Part shown: one piece after another, positions 5,002 to 14,525 of the stretch
Position numbering within the stretch: position 1 is the stretch's first letter
Layout: every line of letters begins with the position of its first letter
Origin: a virus
Reading direction: 5' to 3' (one strand)
Length of the DNA: 24,198 bases
IMG/VR virus record: IMGVR_UViG_3300042691_003760
Span: 1 to 24,198 of that record
Translations under genes and position numbers: made by a program
The notes under the pieces: model-generated
What the model saw: only the letters and a program-made list of their open reading frames with translations
Databases searched by the model: none
Told to the model about the DNA's origin: nothing

Positions 5002-5826
5002 GTGGACTTCATAGACTTTGCTCGCTCGTTTGGCATCATCATCAATGACTATCCACCTATTGGTGTATGGAAAAGATATCCAACTGAAGATCATCCGCGC
5101 TCAAAGAATGGTGCAGTGAAGTACATGGGTACACATGGGTTCGTGCAGAACCATGCGATGGATACTGTCGTGTCCATCTGGAAACCAGACCGCGATGCTG
5201 TCGTAGATCGTACAGGTATGGCTGCATCAATCAAGAAGGCCGCAGATGATGTGCGTAATAAACAGAACGACGCATCGATGAGAGCAGTTACCATGCTGAA
5301 TAATTCTGGTATGTGTAGTCATGCATACTTAGATCGAAAGGGATTCCCTGACGAGCAGGGTAACGTACTTCATATAGCAGGTAAGCCAGTGCTGCTTATA
5401 CCTATGCGTGTTGCTGGTTCGGTCGTCGGATGTCAGATGATTGATGAAGATGGCACGAAGAAGTTTTTATATGGCCAGCGTACAAGTAATGCCACGTTCA
5501 CGTTTGGTCGTGGTGATTTAAATATCTTGTGCGAAGGATATGCAACTGCACTGTCGGTACGCATGGCGATGAAACAATTAAAGCGGCCATGTTCTATCCA
5601 TGTATGTTTCAGTGCAGGCAATATGCTGAAGGTGGCAGAGGGATTGGTAGAGGGTTTGGTAATCGCTGACAATGATGCCAGCGGTACCGGACAATCAACT
5701 GCTGAAAAGATTGGTTGGAAATATTGGATGAGTGATACTGTGGGAGAGGATGCTAATGATTATCACAAACGAGTAGGCCTGTTTAAGTTTTCCCAGAGCC
5801 TGACTCGTTCAATGCTGTGCGTCTGA
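5002..5826 (+). CDS. stand-alone Toprim primase
   Basis: The product is 274 residues from a GTG start at 5002, with purine-rich GGAGAGGATGAG upstream. The N-terminus (GVWKRYPTEDHPRSKNG, then HGFVQN and SIWKPD) matches phage primase-like proteins that lack the Cys4 zinc finger. Two Toprim signatures follow: CEGYATALS (about 176-184), with the catalytic glutamate, and VIADNDASGTGQ (about 220-231), with the DxD-type metal site. The end (EDANDYHKRVGLF) is typical of the group. No helicase domain is fused. It should make primers for phage DNA replication. Its last 18 nt overlap the convergent gene, and its TGA stop lies inside a copy of the repeated 11-mer. Confidence 0.85.
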   Translation: MDFIDFARSFGIIINDYPPIGVWKRYPTEDHPRSKNGAVKYMGTHGFVQNHAMDTVVSIWKPDRDAVVDRTGMAASIKKAADDVRNKQNDASMRAVTMLNNSGMCSHAYLDRKGFPDEQGNVLHIAGKPVLLIPMRVAGSVVGCQMIDEDGTKKFLYGQRTSNATFTFGRGDLNILCEGYATALSVRMAMKQLKRPCSIHVCFSAGNMLKVAEGLVEGLVIADNDASGTGQSTAEKIGWKYWMSDTVGEDANDYHKRVGLFKFSQSLTRSMLCV

Positions 5827-6021
5827 TCTCACCGGATGAGCCACGCTCAAGCGGCCTTCGGTGAATGGTTGAATGAGTGCAAGGGTATTGAGAATCTCAG
5901 TACCCAAGCGCAAGACAATCTCTCCTTCTCCGGTATAGTCTGTTATTGCTTCGACATAACCGGAGTCGGATTCAATCAGGTGAATAGTAAACATTTTTCT
6001 ATTGCTTAGTTCTTCTGACAT
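5809..6021 (-). CDS. small hypothetical protein, last gene of leftward block (70 aa)
   Basis: A 70-residue protein started by ATG at 6021 with a good ribosome binding site (GGGAGG). The core MFTIHLIESDSGYVEAITDYTGEGEIVLRL looks beta-rich; ATG 5994 would be a shorter alternative with a poor site. It ends inside the primase gene on the opposite strand (18-nt convergent overlap). Its last codons, encoding VRSDAQ, contain an exact copy of GAGATCAGACG. No function is recognised. Confidence 0.55.
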   Translation of the reverse strand: MSEELSNRKMFTIHLIESDSGYVEAITDYTGEGEIVLRLGTEILNTLALIQPFTEGRLSVAHPVRSDAQH

Positions 6022-6229: not shown

Positions 6230-6245
6230 TCGTCTGATCTCCTTG

Positions 6246-6431
6246 TTAGTCTATTAGCGAATCCCAGAGGCGGGTGTACCCAACTAGGAACCCAAACTGG
6301 AAGTCTGTAAGGTCTGGCCGCAGTGCTAGTTCGTCGGCACTCTCAAATGGCAGGTCGTTCTCTCGGCAAAACTTTAATAGCTCGGCCGACATGATTACTG
6401 CTACGTATTCATTGCGTAATTGTGCTGTCAT
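6246..6431 (-). CDS. small hypothetical protein (61 aa)
   Basis: A 61-residue protein. The ATG at 6431 overlaps the upstream stop (ATGA) and follows GGAGATCGAGGA, a variant of the block's start-associated motif. The sequence (AELLKFCRENDLPFESADELALR, then DFQFGFLVGYTRLWD) predicts two to three helices. An internal ATG (MSAELLKF) exists but lacks the motif. No domain recognised. Confidence 0.6.
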   Translation of the reverse strand: MTAQLRNEYVAVIMSAELLKFCRENDLPFESADELALRPDLTDFQFGFLVGYTRLWDSLID

Positions 6432-6739
6432 TCCTCGATCTCCTCTATCTCGTCTTCGTCGCGCTCATCAGCTACGTTATCAATGTGTACATCCATGCTG
6501 TACCAATTGATGCCTACTTCGCAGTCGTGATACCTTTCCATGCAGTCCAACACTTCGCGAGCCTCTTCGTCGGATAGCTCTATACCGTTTTCTTCTGCGC
6601 GTTCCTGTACGTCTGATATGTGCCACCAAGATGCGAGCCAGTCTCCACTCGCTAGTTTCTCAGCGTCGTATATAAGATTAGATATATTGAGAGCGTTAAA
6701 ATTCTCAGGCACTTCTATTTCAATGGTAATTTTTTTCAT
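6428..6739 (-). CDS. conserved small phage protein (103 aa)
   Basis: A 103-residue acidic protein. The N-terminus KKITIEIEVPE is a beta strand. The middle shows WWHISDVQERAEENGIELSD, EEAREVLDCMERYHD and GINWYSMDVHI, a pattern I recognise from widespread phage and plasmid proteins of unknown function (W-x-I-x-DV ... EEAxxVL ... GINW). The tail is a run of D and E, and its final codons form part of the next gene's leader. The start overlaps the upstream stop (TAATG) and follows GGAGATCGAATA. Confidence 0.7.
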   Translation of the reverse strand: MKKITIEIEVPENFNALNISNLIYDAEKLASGDWLASWWHISDVQERAEENGIELSDEEAREVLDCMERYHDCEVGINWYSMDVHIDNVADERDEDEIEEIEE

Positions 6740-6909
6740 TATTCGATCTCCGTAACTTCGTTAATGTGCCAGTCAAAATTTTCATTTGATGGTTTGAATT
6801 CGCCACCGTCCATATCTTTCGCTAATTTGTAGGCCTGCTCTGCATTATCAGCTTCAATAATCGCTGTGCAATATGTGTAGTAAACTGCAGTCGCTTTAAA
6901 TTTTGCCAT
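6739..6909 (-). CDS. small DpnD/PcfM-like protein (56 aa)
   Basis: A 56-residue frame that completes the chain between its neighbours. The sequence runs KFKATAVYYTYCTAIIEA, DNAEQAYKLAKDMDGGEF, then DWHINEVTEIE. Strand, helix and 'DGGxF ... W-I-V-I' recall the small DpnD/PcfM-type domain common on phages and plasmids; this likeness is by eye. The start overlaps the end of the upstream gene by 14 nt, with only a weak site (AAAGAG), making it the one start in this part of the block without the GGAGATC leader. Confidence 0.65.
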   Translation of the reverse strand: MAKFKATAVYYTYCTAIIEADNAEQAYKLAKDMDGGEFKPSNENFDWHINEVTEIE

Positions 6910-7108
6910 CTCTAGCTCTTTCTAATTGATAACGAATTGCGGAGTGCCACATTCCTAGTGCGTCCATTATTGGGGTATATTCCCAAGAGTAATCAACATC
7001 TTCCCCACTTTCATAACGCGCTACAAAATCAGCAACTATTTTGTCGTCAATACCTGAAACGTGTGTACCAAAAGCATCAACGAAAGCAGCTTGTTCTAAT
7101 TTATCCAT
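6896..7108 (-). CDS. small antirestriction-like or hypothetical protein (70 aa)
   Basis: A 70-residue acidic protein directly preceded by TAGGAGATCAGACG and ATG 7108. The sequence contains AAFVDAFGTHVSGID, VADFVARYESGEDVDYSWEY and MDALGMWHSAIRYQL. It is predicted mostly helical. The small acidic character could suit a DNA-mimic or inhibitor role, but no antirestriction signature is seen, so it is best called hypothetical. Its ribosome binding site begins within the stop codon of the upstream gene. Confidence 0.6.
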   Translation of the reverse strand: MDKLEQAAFVDAFGTHVSGIDDKIVADFVARYESGEDVDYSWEYTPIMDALGMWHSAIRYQLERARDGKI

Positions 7109-7119
7109 CGTCTGATCTC

Positions 7120-7350
7120 CTATAGTTCTTCTACTGGTATAAAATCGTATGGCACCAAAGTCTCTGACAATAAGTCACCATCTACACTAATAACAATTAC
7201 ACTAAAATTCTGCGCATCATCATCCTTAGTTATGCGTACATAACCACCAACATGAGAAGGTTGTTTTGATTTTTGATTGTATTGGTTGAAATTAATAATC
7301 ATTGTTTGATTATCGAATACGTTTTCATCAATTTCTATTGCTGCTTTCAT
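7120..7350 (-). CDS. small hypothetical protein (76 aa)
   Basis: A 76-residue, predicted beta-rich protein (QTMIINFNQYNQ, GGYVRITKDDDAQNFSVIVISVDGDLLSE). The start at 7350 follows TAGGAGATCAGACG with no gap, and the TAG that ends this gene at 7120 begins the identical leader of the next one. No homologue is recognised. The lower GC content compared with the right end of the leftward block suggests a separate origin, but this is only an impression. Confidence 0.6.
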   Translation of the reverse strand: MKAAIEIDENVFDNQTMIINFNQYNQKSKQPSHVGGYVRITKDDDAQNFSVIVISVDGDLLSETLVPYDFIPVEEL

Positions 7351-7361
7351 CGTCTGATCTC

Positions 7362-7625
7362 CTAGTTTAAGTTAGCTAAATGTTTGGCCTTGACTATTGC
7401 CTGCGCGAGCGAAGTAAATCTATAGTAGTGATTCAACGTCTCGTTAGCGTCAAGGTCATGTAATGCGACTGTGTATCCGGTATCTGTTTGGAATACTCGT
7501 GCCTGAATCCCGAATTTTTCATTGGTGTATTCTTCAATTTGTTTCATCGTCTGATCTCCGATTAATTGCCGATTAAATTCACAATCTGCTAGTCCATACT
7601 GTTGCATTTCTTGAAGTAAACTCAT
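7362..7625 (-). CDS. small hypothetical protein with two motif-bearing in-frame starts (87 or 61 aa)
   Basis: An 87-residue frame from ATG 7625. A second in-frame ATG at 7547 would give a 61-residue form (MKQIEEYTNEKFGIQARVF...). Both starts are preceded by GGAGATCAGACG; at the inner one the motif is read through as GDQT followed by M. The inner form has the usual beta-alpha pattern ending in a helix (SLAQAIVKAKHLANL). The outer 26 residues (SLLQEMQQYGLADCEFNRQLI) may be an old separate leader peptide fused by lack of a stop, or an N-terminal extension. Which form is made is unclear. Confidence 0.6.
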   Translation of the reverse strand: MSLLQEMQQYGLADCEFNRQLIGDQTMKQIEEYTNEKFGIQARVFQTDTGYTVALHDLDANETLNHYYRFTSLAQAIVKAKHLANLN

Positions 7626-7637
7626 GCGTCTGATCTC

Positions 7638-7784
7638 CTAGTTAATGCCCAATTTTTTTAGGGCGATGTGGTGTAGTAATACGTGCGTGCGTGTCATGTA
7701 TGCGTTTGGATTTGCTGCGCTGCGTCTGATCTCGGCTGGTGTCATTAGTCTCAATAAATTATTTAGGTAGGTGCGTCTTGTCAT
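7638..7784 (-). CDS. very small hypothetical protein (48 aa)
   Basis: A 48-residue basic frame: MTRRTYLNNLLRL, then TPAEIRRSAANPNAY and HVLLHHIALKKLGIN. It starts at 7784 in the overlap with the upstream stop and follows GGAGATCAAGAC, a variant of the block's leader. Its stop (TAG) begins the leader of the next gene. The codons for EIRR are an exact copy of GAGATCAGACG. The fit to both neighbours supports it; function unknown. Confidence 0.55.
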   Translation of the reverse strand: MTRRTYLNNLLRLMTPAEIRRSAANPNAYMTRTHVLLHHIALKKLGIN

Positions 7785-7942
7785 GTCTTGATCTCCTTGT
7801 TGTAAGTAATGCGATATCCATTGTCTAAAATTATTGTGTAATAGTTGCTCGTCTGATCTCGCGGTTTAAGTTCTACGGCCTGCGGTTTTTCGCGCTGGTT
7901 TGTGGCCGGTGGTGGTGCGGAAAATAGGTCGGTCTGCATCAT
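7781..7942 (-). CDS. very small hypothetical protein (53 aa)
   Basis: A 53-residue frame from ATG 7942 (ATGATG; 7939 is equally possible), overlapping the stop of the Cys-rich gene. The N-terminal half is proline-rich (DLFSAPPPATNQREKPQ). The C-terminal half (SNYYTIILDNGYRITYN) predicts two beta strands. An exact copy of GAGATCAGACG lies at 7850-7860, where it encodes RDQT. The final TGA overlaps the next start. No known domain. Confidence 0.55.
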   Translation of the reverse strand: MMQTDLFSAPPPATNQREKPQAVELKPRDQTSNYYTIILDNGYRITYNKEIKT

Positions 7943-8619
7943 GCGGCCTGTAAGATAGGTATAACGCGTCTGGCCTTCGCGTCGGTTTGTTTGGCATTAT
8001 TTCCATGCGCCCTGAATCCGATAATCGCTTTTCTGTCGGCCTTCTGGCAGAGCTGGCAGACCGAGCAGGTCATATACTCGCGGGTTTGTGCTGGGCAGAT
8101 AGTGATCGGCCTTCCGGCCGGTGTCATGCTGCGCTCTGGTGTATCCATCGGGACTATGCAAACAGTTGGAAGGCCTGTCGCGGCCAGCGTGTCGGCCTCT
8201 CCTGCGTCGTCGGCTGATAGGTTTACAGTAAAACCCCACTCGGTCGCGTGTCTCGCCCACTTGATCGCGTCGGCTGATTTCTTGTGCGTGTAAGTAAAAC
8301 CGCGTCGGCCGATATTGGCCTTGACTAGTTCGCCCAGTGCGGCCGCGTCAACGGCCTCACCTACTCCGGCCAAGTCTCCGGCCACATTGTGGCGCCATAT
8401 CTGGCCGTCTGGCAGTGCTGCGATTTCCTTGCATAGGTCGGCCAGTGATAGGCCGCGTTGTGGAACCTGATTCCAATTTAATCGCGTGTGGAAGTCTTCC
8501 GCATAGCAGGTCGAGCGATACTGCGGGCAGGAAGGCGGGCAGGTATCGCGCTCGCTGTAAGTGGTCGGTATTGTGCCGGTCTTTTTATTATTTGATTTTT
8601 TAATGAAGTGTACTTTCAT
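7939..8619 (-). CDS. Cys-rich phage protein, DUF7227-like
   Basis: The product is 226 residues. Cysteines cluster at both ends: CPPSCPQYRSTC near residues 27-38 and CPAQTREYMTCSVCQLC near 174-190, suggesting a metal site or iron-sulfur cluster. Between them lie GQIWRHNVAGDLAG and FTYTHKKSADAIKWA. The pattern 'KTGxIP ... T-x6-C-P-x2-C ... CYAE' matches a common phage family I recall as DUF7227; no function is established. GGGGAAAAA precedes ATG 8619. The gene is unusually rich in GGCC (17 copies by count). Confidence 0.75.
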   Translation of the reverse strand: MKVHFIKKSNNKKTGTIPTTYSERDTCPPSCPQYRSTCYAEDFHTRLNWNQVPQRGLSLADLCKEIAALPDGQIWRHNVAGDLAGVGEAVDAAALGELVKANIGRRGFTYTHKKSADAIKWARHATEWGFTVNLSADDAGEADTLAATGLPTVCIVPMDTPERSMTPAGRPITICPAQTREYMTCSVCQLCQKADRKAIIGFRAHGNNAKQTDAKARRVIPILQAA

Positions 8620-12840: not shown

Positions 12841-13035
12841 ATGGATGCGCTGGAGAAATTTGTTCGGGTCTTTAATAAATCTGGTGTGGTATGGACGAAC
12901 GAAATGTGGGACGCGTGGAGGGAGTTGGACGCGGAGTACCAAGCAATGAAGCCAAATCCAGTGCCGGATACTTTGTCTCCCGCAGATATGAAGCGAGCAA
13001 CTAATACCCCTTGGCATGATAAAGCTAGTTACTAA
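12841..13035 (+). CDS. small hypothetical protein before terL (64 aa)
   Basis: A 64-residue protein with a strong ribosome binding site (AGGAGAGGGAGAC). It is helical at the start (DALEKFVRVFNKSG, MWDAWRELDAEYQ) and ends in a proline-rich tail (NPVPDTLSPADMKR). It overlaps the terL start by one base (TAATG), so the two are probably translated together. No family recognised. Confidence 0.6.
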   Translation: MDALEKFVRVFNKSGVVWTNEMWDAWRELDAEYQAMKPNPVPDTLSPADMKRATNTPWHDKASY

Positions 13036-14525
13036 TGAATATTGAGCAATCTACTATTGAGCGTTTGATCGCCCAGCTTCCACTCCCTGAACAGGAGAAG
13101 CTGTTGGAGTTGGCGAGCCAACACAGTAATGCGTTGGTGCGTGAAAAAGCGCAAAAGAACTTTATGGCTTTCGTAAAAGAAATGTGGCCGGGATTTATTC
13201 ACGGGCGACACCACGCTTTAATGGCTAAGAAGTTCGAGGAGATCGCCGAAGGGAAACTAAAAAGGCTAATTATTAATATGCCGCCTCGTCATACTAAGTC
13301 TGAGTTTGCATCGAATATGTTGCCAGCTTGGTTCTTGGGAAGGTTCCCAGATAAGAAGGTAATTCAATGTTCCAACACGGCGGATTTGTCTGTTGGCTTT
13401 GGTAGGAAAGTGAGGAACCTAGTTGACTCAGAACAATACTCGAAGATTTTTCCCAATGTCTCGTTACGCGCAGACTCAAAGGCCGCTGGTCGATGGGCTA
13501 CTAGCCATAACGGGGATTACTTTGCTATCGGCGTTGGCGGTACTGTTACTGGTAAGGGTGCCGATCTACTTATTATTGACGATCCGCACTCCGAACAAGA
13601 AGCTAGGTTAGCGCAGGGTGACCCAACCGTCTTTGATTCTGTGTATGAATGGTATACATCAGGACCACGGCAACGTTTACAGCCGGGCGGCGCAATTATT
13701 ATCGTGATGACACGCTGGTCAGACAAAGATTTGACCGGAAAAGTGTTAAAGAATGACGCTTCCGAGTGGGAAGTTATTGAATTACCGGCAATAATGCCGT
13801 CTGGCAGACCGCTTTGGCCTGAGTTTTGGTCGTTAGAAGAGCTATCTGCACTAAAAGAAGAGCTTCCACCGTACAAATGGAACGCTCAGTACCAGCAAAA
13901 ACCCACTGGAGAAGAGGGTGCCATCGTAAAAAGAGATTGGTGGCGTCGTTGGGAGAGTGATAGACCACCAAGATGTGAGTTTATTATTCAAAGCTGGGAC
14001 ACTGCGTTCACTAAATCACAACGCGCCGACTATTCTGCGTGTACAACGTGGGGAGTTTTTCATTTAAACGAGGATGAGGGTGATGTGAACATCATATTGC
14101 TTGATGCTTTGAAGGAAAAGTGGGAATTTCCTGAGTTAAAGGACAATGCCAAGAGAATGTATGATGAATGGCAGCCAGATGCTTGTATTATTGAGGCTAA
14201 AGCTGCTGGAGCGCCACTGATTTTTGAATTAAGACGGATGGGCGTGATGGTTTCAGACTATACGCCGGTACGTGGCAACGATAAGTTTGTACGTCTAAAT
14301 TCAGTTACAGATTTATTTAGATCAGGTAAAGTATGGGCGCCAGAAACCCGTTGGGCTGACGAACTTATTGAAGAGATGGCAAGGTTTCCAAACGCCGAGC
14401 ATGATGACTTAACTGACTCCGCGACACAGGCACTGATTAGATTCAGACAGGGCGGATTTTTACGACTAGATTCAGACGAAGCAGATGAGGATCTCGGCTT
14501 TCGTCGCAAACGGTCTTACTACTAG
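13035..14525 (+). CDS. terL: terminase large subunit
   Basis: The product is 496 residues, the usual TerL length. The ATPase half has the Walker A-like PPRHTKSE (about 83-90) and Walker B LLIIDDPH (about 178-185), then the coupling region IIIVMTRWSDKDL. The nuclease half has SWDTAFTK (about 322), with the first metal-binding aspartate, IIEAKAAG (about 387) and HDDLTDS (about 456). It powers DNA packaging and cuts the concatemer. It belongs to the Terminase_6/RNase H-like nuclease type and is followed 8 nt later by the portal gene. Confidence 0.95.
   Translation: MNIEQSTIERLIAQLPLPEQEKLLELASQHSNALVREKAQKNFMAFVKEMWPGFIHGRHHALMAKKFEEIAEGKLKRLIINMPPRHTKSEFASNMLPAWFLGRFPDKKVIQCSNTADLSVGFGRKVRNLVDSEQYSKIFPNVSLRADSKAAGRWATSHNGDYFAIGVGGTVTGKGADLLIIDDPHSEQEARLAQGDPTVFDSVYEWYTSGPRQRLQPGGAIIIVMTRWSDKDLTGKVLKNDASEWEVIELPAIMPSGRPLWPEFWSLEELSALKEELPPYKWNAQYQQKPTGEEGAIVKRDWWRRWESDRPPRCEFIIQSWDTAFTKSQRADYSACTTWGVFHLNEDEGDVNIILLDALKEKWEFPELKDNAKRMYDEWQPDACIIEAKAAGAPLIFELRRMGVMVSDYTPVRGNDKFVRLNSVTDLFRSGKVWAPETRWADELIEEMARFPNAEHDDLTDSATQALIRFRQGGFLRLDSDEADEDLGFRRKRSYY

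Follow-up and report, generated by a model that had tools for sequence, protein, structure and literature searches.

A conserved start-associated leader appears to mark the joints of exchanged small-gene units in uncultured, mostly aquatic bacteriophages

Several small leftward genes in a fragment of 24,198 bases from an uncultured tailed phage (hereafter, the window) begin directly behind one and the same sequence, GGAGATCAGACG, which raises the question of what the fixed bases beyond the GGAG of its Shine-Dalgarno core are for. A preliminary description of this DNA had offered three roles, namely a binding site for an RNA-binding regulator, an extended contact with the ribosome and a recombination seam, and had named the start-associated sequences (SAS) of cluster K mycobacteriophages as the nearest parallel. 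Judging from comparisons among related phage sequences, the motif appears to mark joints where whole genes, and even a promoter, were added, lost or swapped between phages.

The window opens with a rightward block, extending to 5.8 kb, that holds a helicase-like gene among others; next come small genes in a leftward block (5.8-10.8 kb), followed by a rightward packaging and structural block that includes terL (Table 1). Among named phages, the terminases nearest to that of the window are 52-57% identical (DSL-LC04, 023Pt_psg01, HTVC027P and HTVC023P). All five starts reported to lie 0-1 nt behind exact GGAGATCAGACG were located on the minus strand, and the three reported junctions of the form TAGGAGATCAGACG(c)ATG are present. 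The GGAGATC variants described at 6431, 6739 and 7784 stood up only in part: that at 7784 looks like a true near-copy, whereas the other two overlap the final codons of upstream genes. ORF 7362-7625 contains start 7547 in frame and, because homologues begin at the MKQI.. of this start, initiation at 7625 adds a short N-terminal extension in the same frame, in which the motif is translated as GDQT. A sigma-70 scan across the window array gave scores no better than those of shuffles.

Counted across the 24 kb window, the exact 11-mer GAGATCAGACG occurs eight times on the minus strand and never on the plus strand, the pattern read backwards has no occurrences, and GATCAGACG at one mismatch or fewer occurs 15 times compared to 4.2 expected, a number matched by none of 100 shuffles. 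Three of the eight 11-mer copies (5820, 7723 and 7850), absent from the preliminary description, are away from starts, all of them within ORFs and in three different reading frames; the copy at 7723 is perhaps a coding coincidence, and homologues of 7638-7784 retain EIRRS or EIKRS using other codons. A separate IMG/VR contig (L059) is 100% identical to the window across 7381 bp and is therefore not independent of it; this contig sat in the pooled sets used below, where it was mostly dropped through context deduplication.

Table 1. Motif copies, motif-led genes and landmark genes of the window.
Feature	Position	Strand	Remark
In-ORF copy TGAGATCAGACG	5820..5831	-	C-terminus (..PVRSDAQH*) of 5809-6021
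Small gene led by motif, 68 aa	6023..6229	-	
Exact GGAGATCAGACG	6231..6242	-	gap 1 to ATG 6229
GGAGATCGAGGA	6432..6443	-	at start 6431; overlaps upstream gene's end (..EIEE*), probably coding
GGAGATCGAATA	6740..6751	-	at start 6739; overlaps upstream gene's end (..TEIE*)
Small gene led by motif, 70 aa	6896..7108	-	
Exact GGAGATCAGACG	7109..7120	-	gap 0 to ATG 7108; overlapped by upstream gene's TAG stop
Small gene led by motif, 76 aa	7120..7350	-	
Exact GGAGATCAGACG	7351..7362	-	gap 0 to ATG 7350; overlapped by TAG stop
Small gene led by motif, 87 aa	7362..7625	-	61 aa counted from conserved start 7547
Exact GGAGATCAGACG	7548..7559	-	gap 0 to ATG 7547 (MKQI.. family start); GDQT in frame of ORF 7362-7625
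Exact GGAGATCAGACG	7627..7638	-	gap 1 to ATG 7625
In-ORF copy CGAGATCAGACG (EIRR)	7723..7734	-	within 7638-7784
Near-copy GGAGATCAAGAC	7785..7796	-	at start 7784
In-ORF copy CGAGATCAGACG (RDQT)	7850..7861	-	middle of 7781-7942
DUF7227 gene	7939..8619	-	array's promoter-proximal edge; without motif
Terminase large subunit	13035..14525	+	terL; motif-independent anchor for finding relatives

An IMG/VR scan for GGAGATCAGACG(N)ATG returned at least 120 stretches, many of which hold several copies, and among the stretches listed the copies of multi-copy loci always lie on one strand. Because selection by the motif had to be avoided, relatives were fetched by their terminase alone. These often carry 2-11 copies in a single orientation, mostly within an array of 1-4 kb; in those with enough upstream DNA, 2-10 copies often lie on the strand opposite terL, approximately 3-7 kb upstream of it. 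Nearly all copies fall in one cluster in whole-record searches, and the motif, rather than being equally common away from starts throughout these genomes, is almost confined to the arrays. The motif-bearing group consists of uncultured, mostly aquatic bacteriophages; AGATCAGAC is absent from 34-41 kb stretches of each of the isolated relatives HTVC027P, HTVC023P, DSL-LC04 and 023Pt_psg01. A host-borne motif was considered and rejected, 84,980 bacterial and archaeal genomes having returned 32 stretches, each with a single TAGGAGATCAGACG(N)ATG. One of these, a single-cell Bacteroidetes contig (L353), carries two AGATCAGAC copies on the same strand.

The idea of a start motif universal to all relatives was likewise rejected, the motif being strong only in the GATCAGAC group. 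There is also a weaker group of relatives with GGAGCTTAMAC, and in a related lineage (L193, L194, L195 and L196; terminase about 75%) the start-associated leader, AGGAGCTTAMAC, is weaker. The closest motif-free terminase, 89% identical, belongs to record G001, which carries an array of paralogous genes (W-GLTDEE .. AKLKEKNT; L288-L291, oriented 45.6-49.0 kb) whose joints are repeated AAGGAGAAGAACACATGA. Two further loci, L146 and L147, which are placed among motif bearers in the terminase tree and have near-identical terminases, also lack the motif. On this tree, presence and absence of the motif take five changes, at least three of which are forced by well-supported branches. The motif-free relatives and these changes together point to arrays that were probably gained, lost or replaced as whole blocks.

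Altogether, 254 of 308 distinct AGATCAGAC sites are linked to a start, which is ATG at 245 of the 254; the GG ahead of AGATCAGAC is kept at 97-98% of start-linked sites, and the full 12-mer mostly ends 0-2 nt from the start codon. Conservation extends beyond GGAG. Among 664 orthologue pairs from 35 families, motif positions differ at rates of 0.00-0.06 (0.14 at the last position), compared to about 44% in the flanks (0.39-0.51 at most flank positions, with exceptions of 8% at -1 and 25% at -3) and 0.44 at fourfold sites, and a set restricted to terminase-only targets behaved much like the full one (0.00-0.13). Array leaders are bimodal: of 120 starts, 61 have the exact sequence, 30 have one mismatch, two have two, and the rest have four or more. 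Homologues of array genes in motif-free genomes diverge at a number of spacer bases (60% at the ninth and 74% at the twelfth), and their leaders resemble the other leaders of the genomes in which they reside; the leader therefore follows the array, not the gene.

The motif-led genes belong to 58 unrelated small-protein families. Tandem duplication of genes together with their leaders does hold for another repeat, that of G001, where the AAGGAGAAGAACAC joints are those of a paralogous family, but as an explanation of the present motif its chances are close to nil, because the 58 families are non-homologous and the motif genes of the window show no mutual similarity and are not paralogues.

Copies are also found away from starts. 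The arrays contain 43 distinct non-start copies in the orientation of the array and none in the reverse orientation (mean of 0.6 for shuffled 9-mers). These fall in different reading frames, about half of them lack the GG, and a stop codon lies within 25 nt of 19 of the 43, compared to 15% expected. Several array proteins end in GDQTI, GDQTV, RDQTL, RSDAQH, RSDE, VDQTLTERT, IDQTVLSSGHE or EDQTVLSCAND because their ORFs read into the motif, and some mid-ORF copies may be coding coincidences. Other non-start copies precede a promoter block that recurs in 11 loci ahead of five gene families, with the layout motif, about 23 nt, TTGACA box, second motif, and then one of five different genes; the first motif carries one or two mismatches in a few of the 11 loci. 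This promoter-like block (TTGACAATT..) is conserved in L002, L005, L010, L011, L013, L022, L033, L055, L064, L114 and L120. An inverted repeat, TCACGCTTSACAA..GAGCGTGA, perhaps an operator, lies downstream of the -35 box in several of these loci and was seen only at the promoter block, the tabulation of leaders having spanned columns -15 to -1.

The non-start copies bear on two readings in which the motif acts solely on mRNA. An extended ribosome site and nothing more, with a spacer optimal for the host ribosome or for S1, would be consistent with the nearly invariant GGAG, the predominance of ATG and the short gap at starts. We nevertheless consider it improbable: copies exist without a start and often without GG, different spacers are found on leftward genes elsewhere in these genomes and in the closest relatives, and the motif array occurs in none of the bacterial genomes searched. 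Because there are 43 non-start copies and none reversed, many of them at ORF ends and others just before the promoter block, a ribosome site alone would not account for the motif, and the extended ribosome contact that had been suggested is a weak proposal in light of the copies lacking both GG and a start. Even less probable, by a good measure, is a target for a GGAG-specific endoribonuclease like T4 RegB that shuts off early mRNAs. The RegB/S1 consensus, GGAGRAYARAA (PMC3014915), matches GGAGAUCAGAC at 9 of 11 positions by eye, but GG is missing from about half of the non-start copies and there is no RegB_T4 (PF10715) match among 12 records.

We then compared 61 array loci in pairs, a set in which overlapping or near-identical records make the event counts non-independent and for which event windows were chosen while exploring, and obtained 72 distinct gain or loss events in 122 kb of array, compared to 72 in 468 kb outside. 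Both ends fell at the motif in 51 of the 72 array events (permutation mean of 2.1, maximum of 9), and the homology at the junctions had a median of 20 nt for motif-ended events, compared to -3 and 3.5 elsewhere. When expressed per unit, gene-precise events numbered 39/124 between motif starts and 17/319 between non-motif starts, a six-fold difference, although approximately three-quarters of array starts carry the motif, such that the motif would often stand at both ends of a gene-precise change, whatever its mechanism. In the clearest case, a 197-bp unit is present in L002 and L010 and missing from L013, where a single motif is left and the flanks are 96-99% identical. Comparison with L209, from a genome whose terminase is 99% identical to that of the window, shows insertion or replacement of several motif-led units among neighbours that keep their order. 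Gene gain and loss at or close to gene starts also occurs in motif-free relatives, with short overlaps and little homology. As the counts are non-independent, the windows exploratory and array genes may be more dispensable than others, the counts locate the joints and not the cause of the joining.

In a further reading, a trans-acting regulator, of phage or host, would act on the motif in RNA or DNA to control translation or transcription of the array, with shuffling as a by-product. The fixed distance to ATG, the strong conservation and the single orientation would all agree with such a site, as would the restriction of non-start copies to the same strand, the other leaders found on homologues in motif-free genomes, and a small excess of identical tails within a genome. 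On the other side, BLAST comparison of eight motif-bearing and five motif-free records found no gene shared by all of the former and absent from the latter, and hence no repressor candidate specific to motif genomes. Moreover, L146 and L147 are without the motif despite their near-identical terminases, which means that the regulator and all of its sites would have to move together, and neither the read-through copies at ORF ends nor the copies before the promoter block would be expected. We thus regard regulation by a trans-acting factor, including the RNA-binding regulator proposed at the outset, as rather unlikely.

Instead, we propose that GGAGATCAGACG is probably a shared Shine-Dalgarno leader that doubles as the recombination joint of the small-gene array. 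The leader, made up of GGAG and a fixed spacer, would be used by the array genes for translation, and each unit would consist of the motif and a payload, which can be a promoter. Recombination at the short identical joints would allow units to be gained, lost and exchanged between phages, and an inserted payload would acquire the ribosome site of the array itself. We infer that crossovers would take place within the motif, carried out by an Erf-type annealing protein and a PD-(D/E)XK nuclease of the phage, and that exchangeability would help to keep the copies identical. By BLAST, each of the eight near-complete motif genomes has an Erf homologue, as do some motif-free genomes; G021, one of the motif genomes, carries an Erf match (PF04404, 1.9e-26) as well as a PD-(D/E)XK nuclease. 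In a lambda assay, the recombination efficiency of Erf/Exo from phage D3 was similar to that of Red for identical and diverged DNA alike (PMC3945230). Among the roles first suggested, the seam gains direct comparative support, from motif-ended gain and loss of units, a motif-bounded unit holding only a promoter, and read-through copies at ORF ends. The motif is likely to serve as a seam, and this role may be a cause of its conservation; however, a neutral seam need not lie 0-2 nt from ATG, and translation or regulation must therefore matter too. More tentatively, and with some doubt on our part, the motif could be a self-reinforcing universal adaptor, in which joints matching the consensus exchange more, spread and stay uniform, giving an integron-like cassette array without a site-specific integrase, of which SAS elsewhere are perhaps a weaker form.

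What emerges is a start-associated sequence under strong conservation in phages of a new group, and the evidence that it marks the joints of exchanged units is unusually direct. Since 2011, SAS have been catalogued with no function assigned to them, and it has long been asked whether phage mosaicism is driven by short conserved joints; one natural system with many copies, close relatives and precise empty sites makes both testable together. If the seam role is true, it would explain how a phage accepts new small genes and expresses them at once.

Several known systems resemble the motif in part. The stoperators of cluster A mycobacteriophages (PMC3029335) are, like the motif, about 13 bp long, asymmetric and present in many copies of one orientation, but they are bound by a repressor and mostly intergenic, whereas the motif keeps a fixed spacing to ATG. 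The PeSL cassettes of T4-like phages (Arbiol 2010; Comeau 2014; cited in PMC4503421) are repeated intergenic regulatory elements said to mediate gene shuffling; they combine a promoter and a stem-loop, whereas the repeat here is a 12-nt ribosome leader and a promoter is just one kind of payload. The boundary sequences of lambdoid phages (Susskind and Botstein 1978; Clark et al. 2001) are, according to PMC3029335, short, conserved, located at module joints and proposed as places of homologous recombination. A short identical sequence is likewise present at both ends of the modules exchanged in 51/72 array events, and both kinds of sequence lie at module joints, but one sequence is common to the array joints here and is also the ribosome site.

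The closest system by description is the SAS of cluster K mycobacteriophages (PMC3203893; PMC12699233) and of cluster EF Microbacterium phages (PMC7302621). Both SAS and the motif are short fixed sequences at the ribosome site that go beyond the need for 16S pairing, keep one orientation and precede non-structural genes of many unrelated families. The motif is conserved near starts, conserved beyond the Shine-Dalgarno core and found before many non-structural families, as are SAS. The phages are unrelated and the sequences differ, GGAGATCAGACG sharing only the Shine-Dalgarno core with the SAS consensus GGGATAGGAGCCC (cluster K) or GGGAAAGGACCCC (cluster EF), and the motif copies are dense, standing at almost all genes in an array of 1-4 kb. 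About half of SAS are linked to an inverted repeat upstream (ESAS); nothing resembling it was noticed beside the motif within the leader columns tabulated. The parallel with cluster K that had been drawn thus fits by ribosome site, orientation and gene content, and fails by sequence. When the event comparison was applied to nine cluster K genomes (W01-W09; L372-L389), SAS lay at both ends of two of the 32 gain or loss events and at one end or more of 10 (permutation means of 0.01 and 1.4), the two both-ended cases sharing one insertion in Unicorn (W05); this signal has the same direction as that of the motif arrays and is weaker. The motif works like SAS yet is distinct from the actinophage element.
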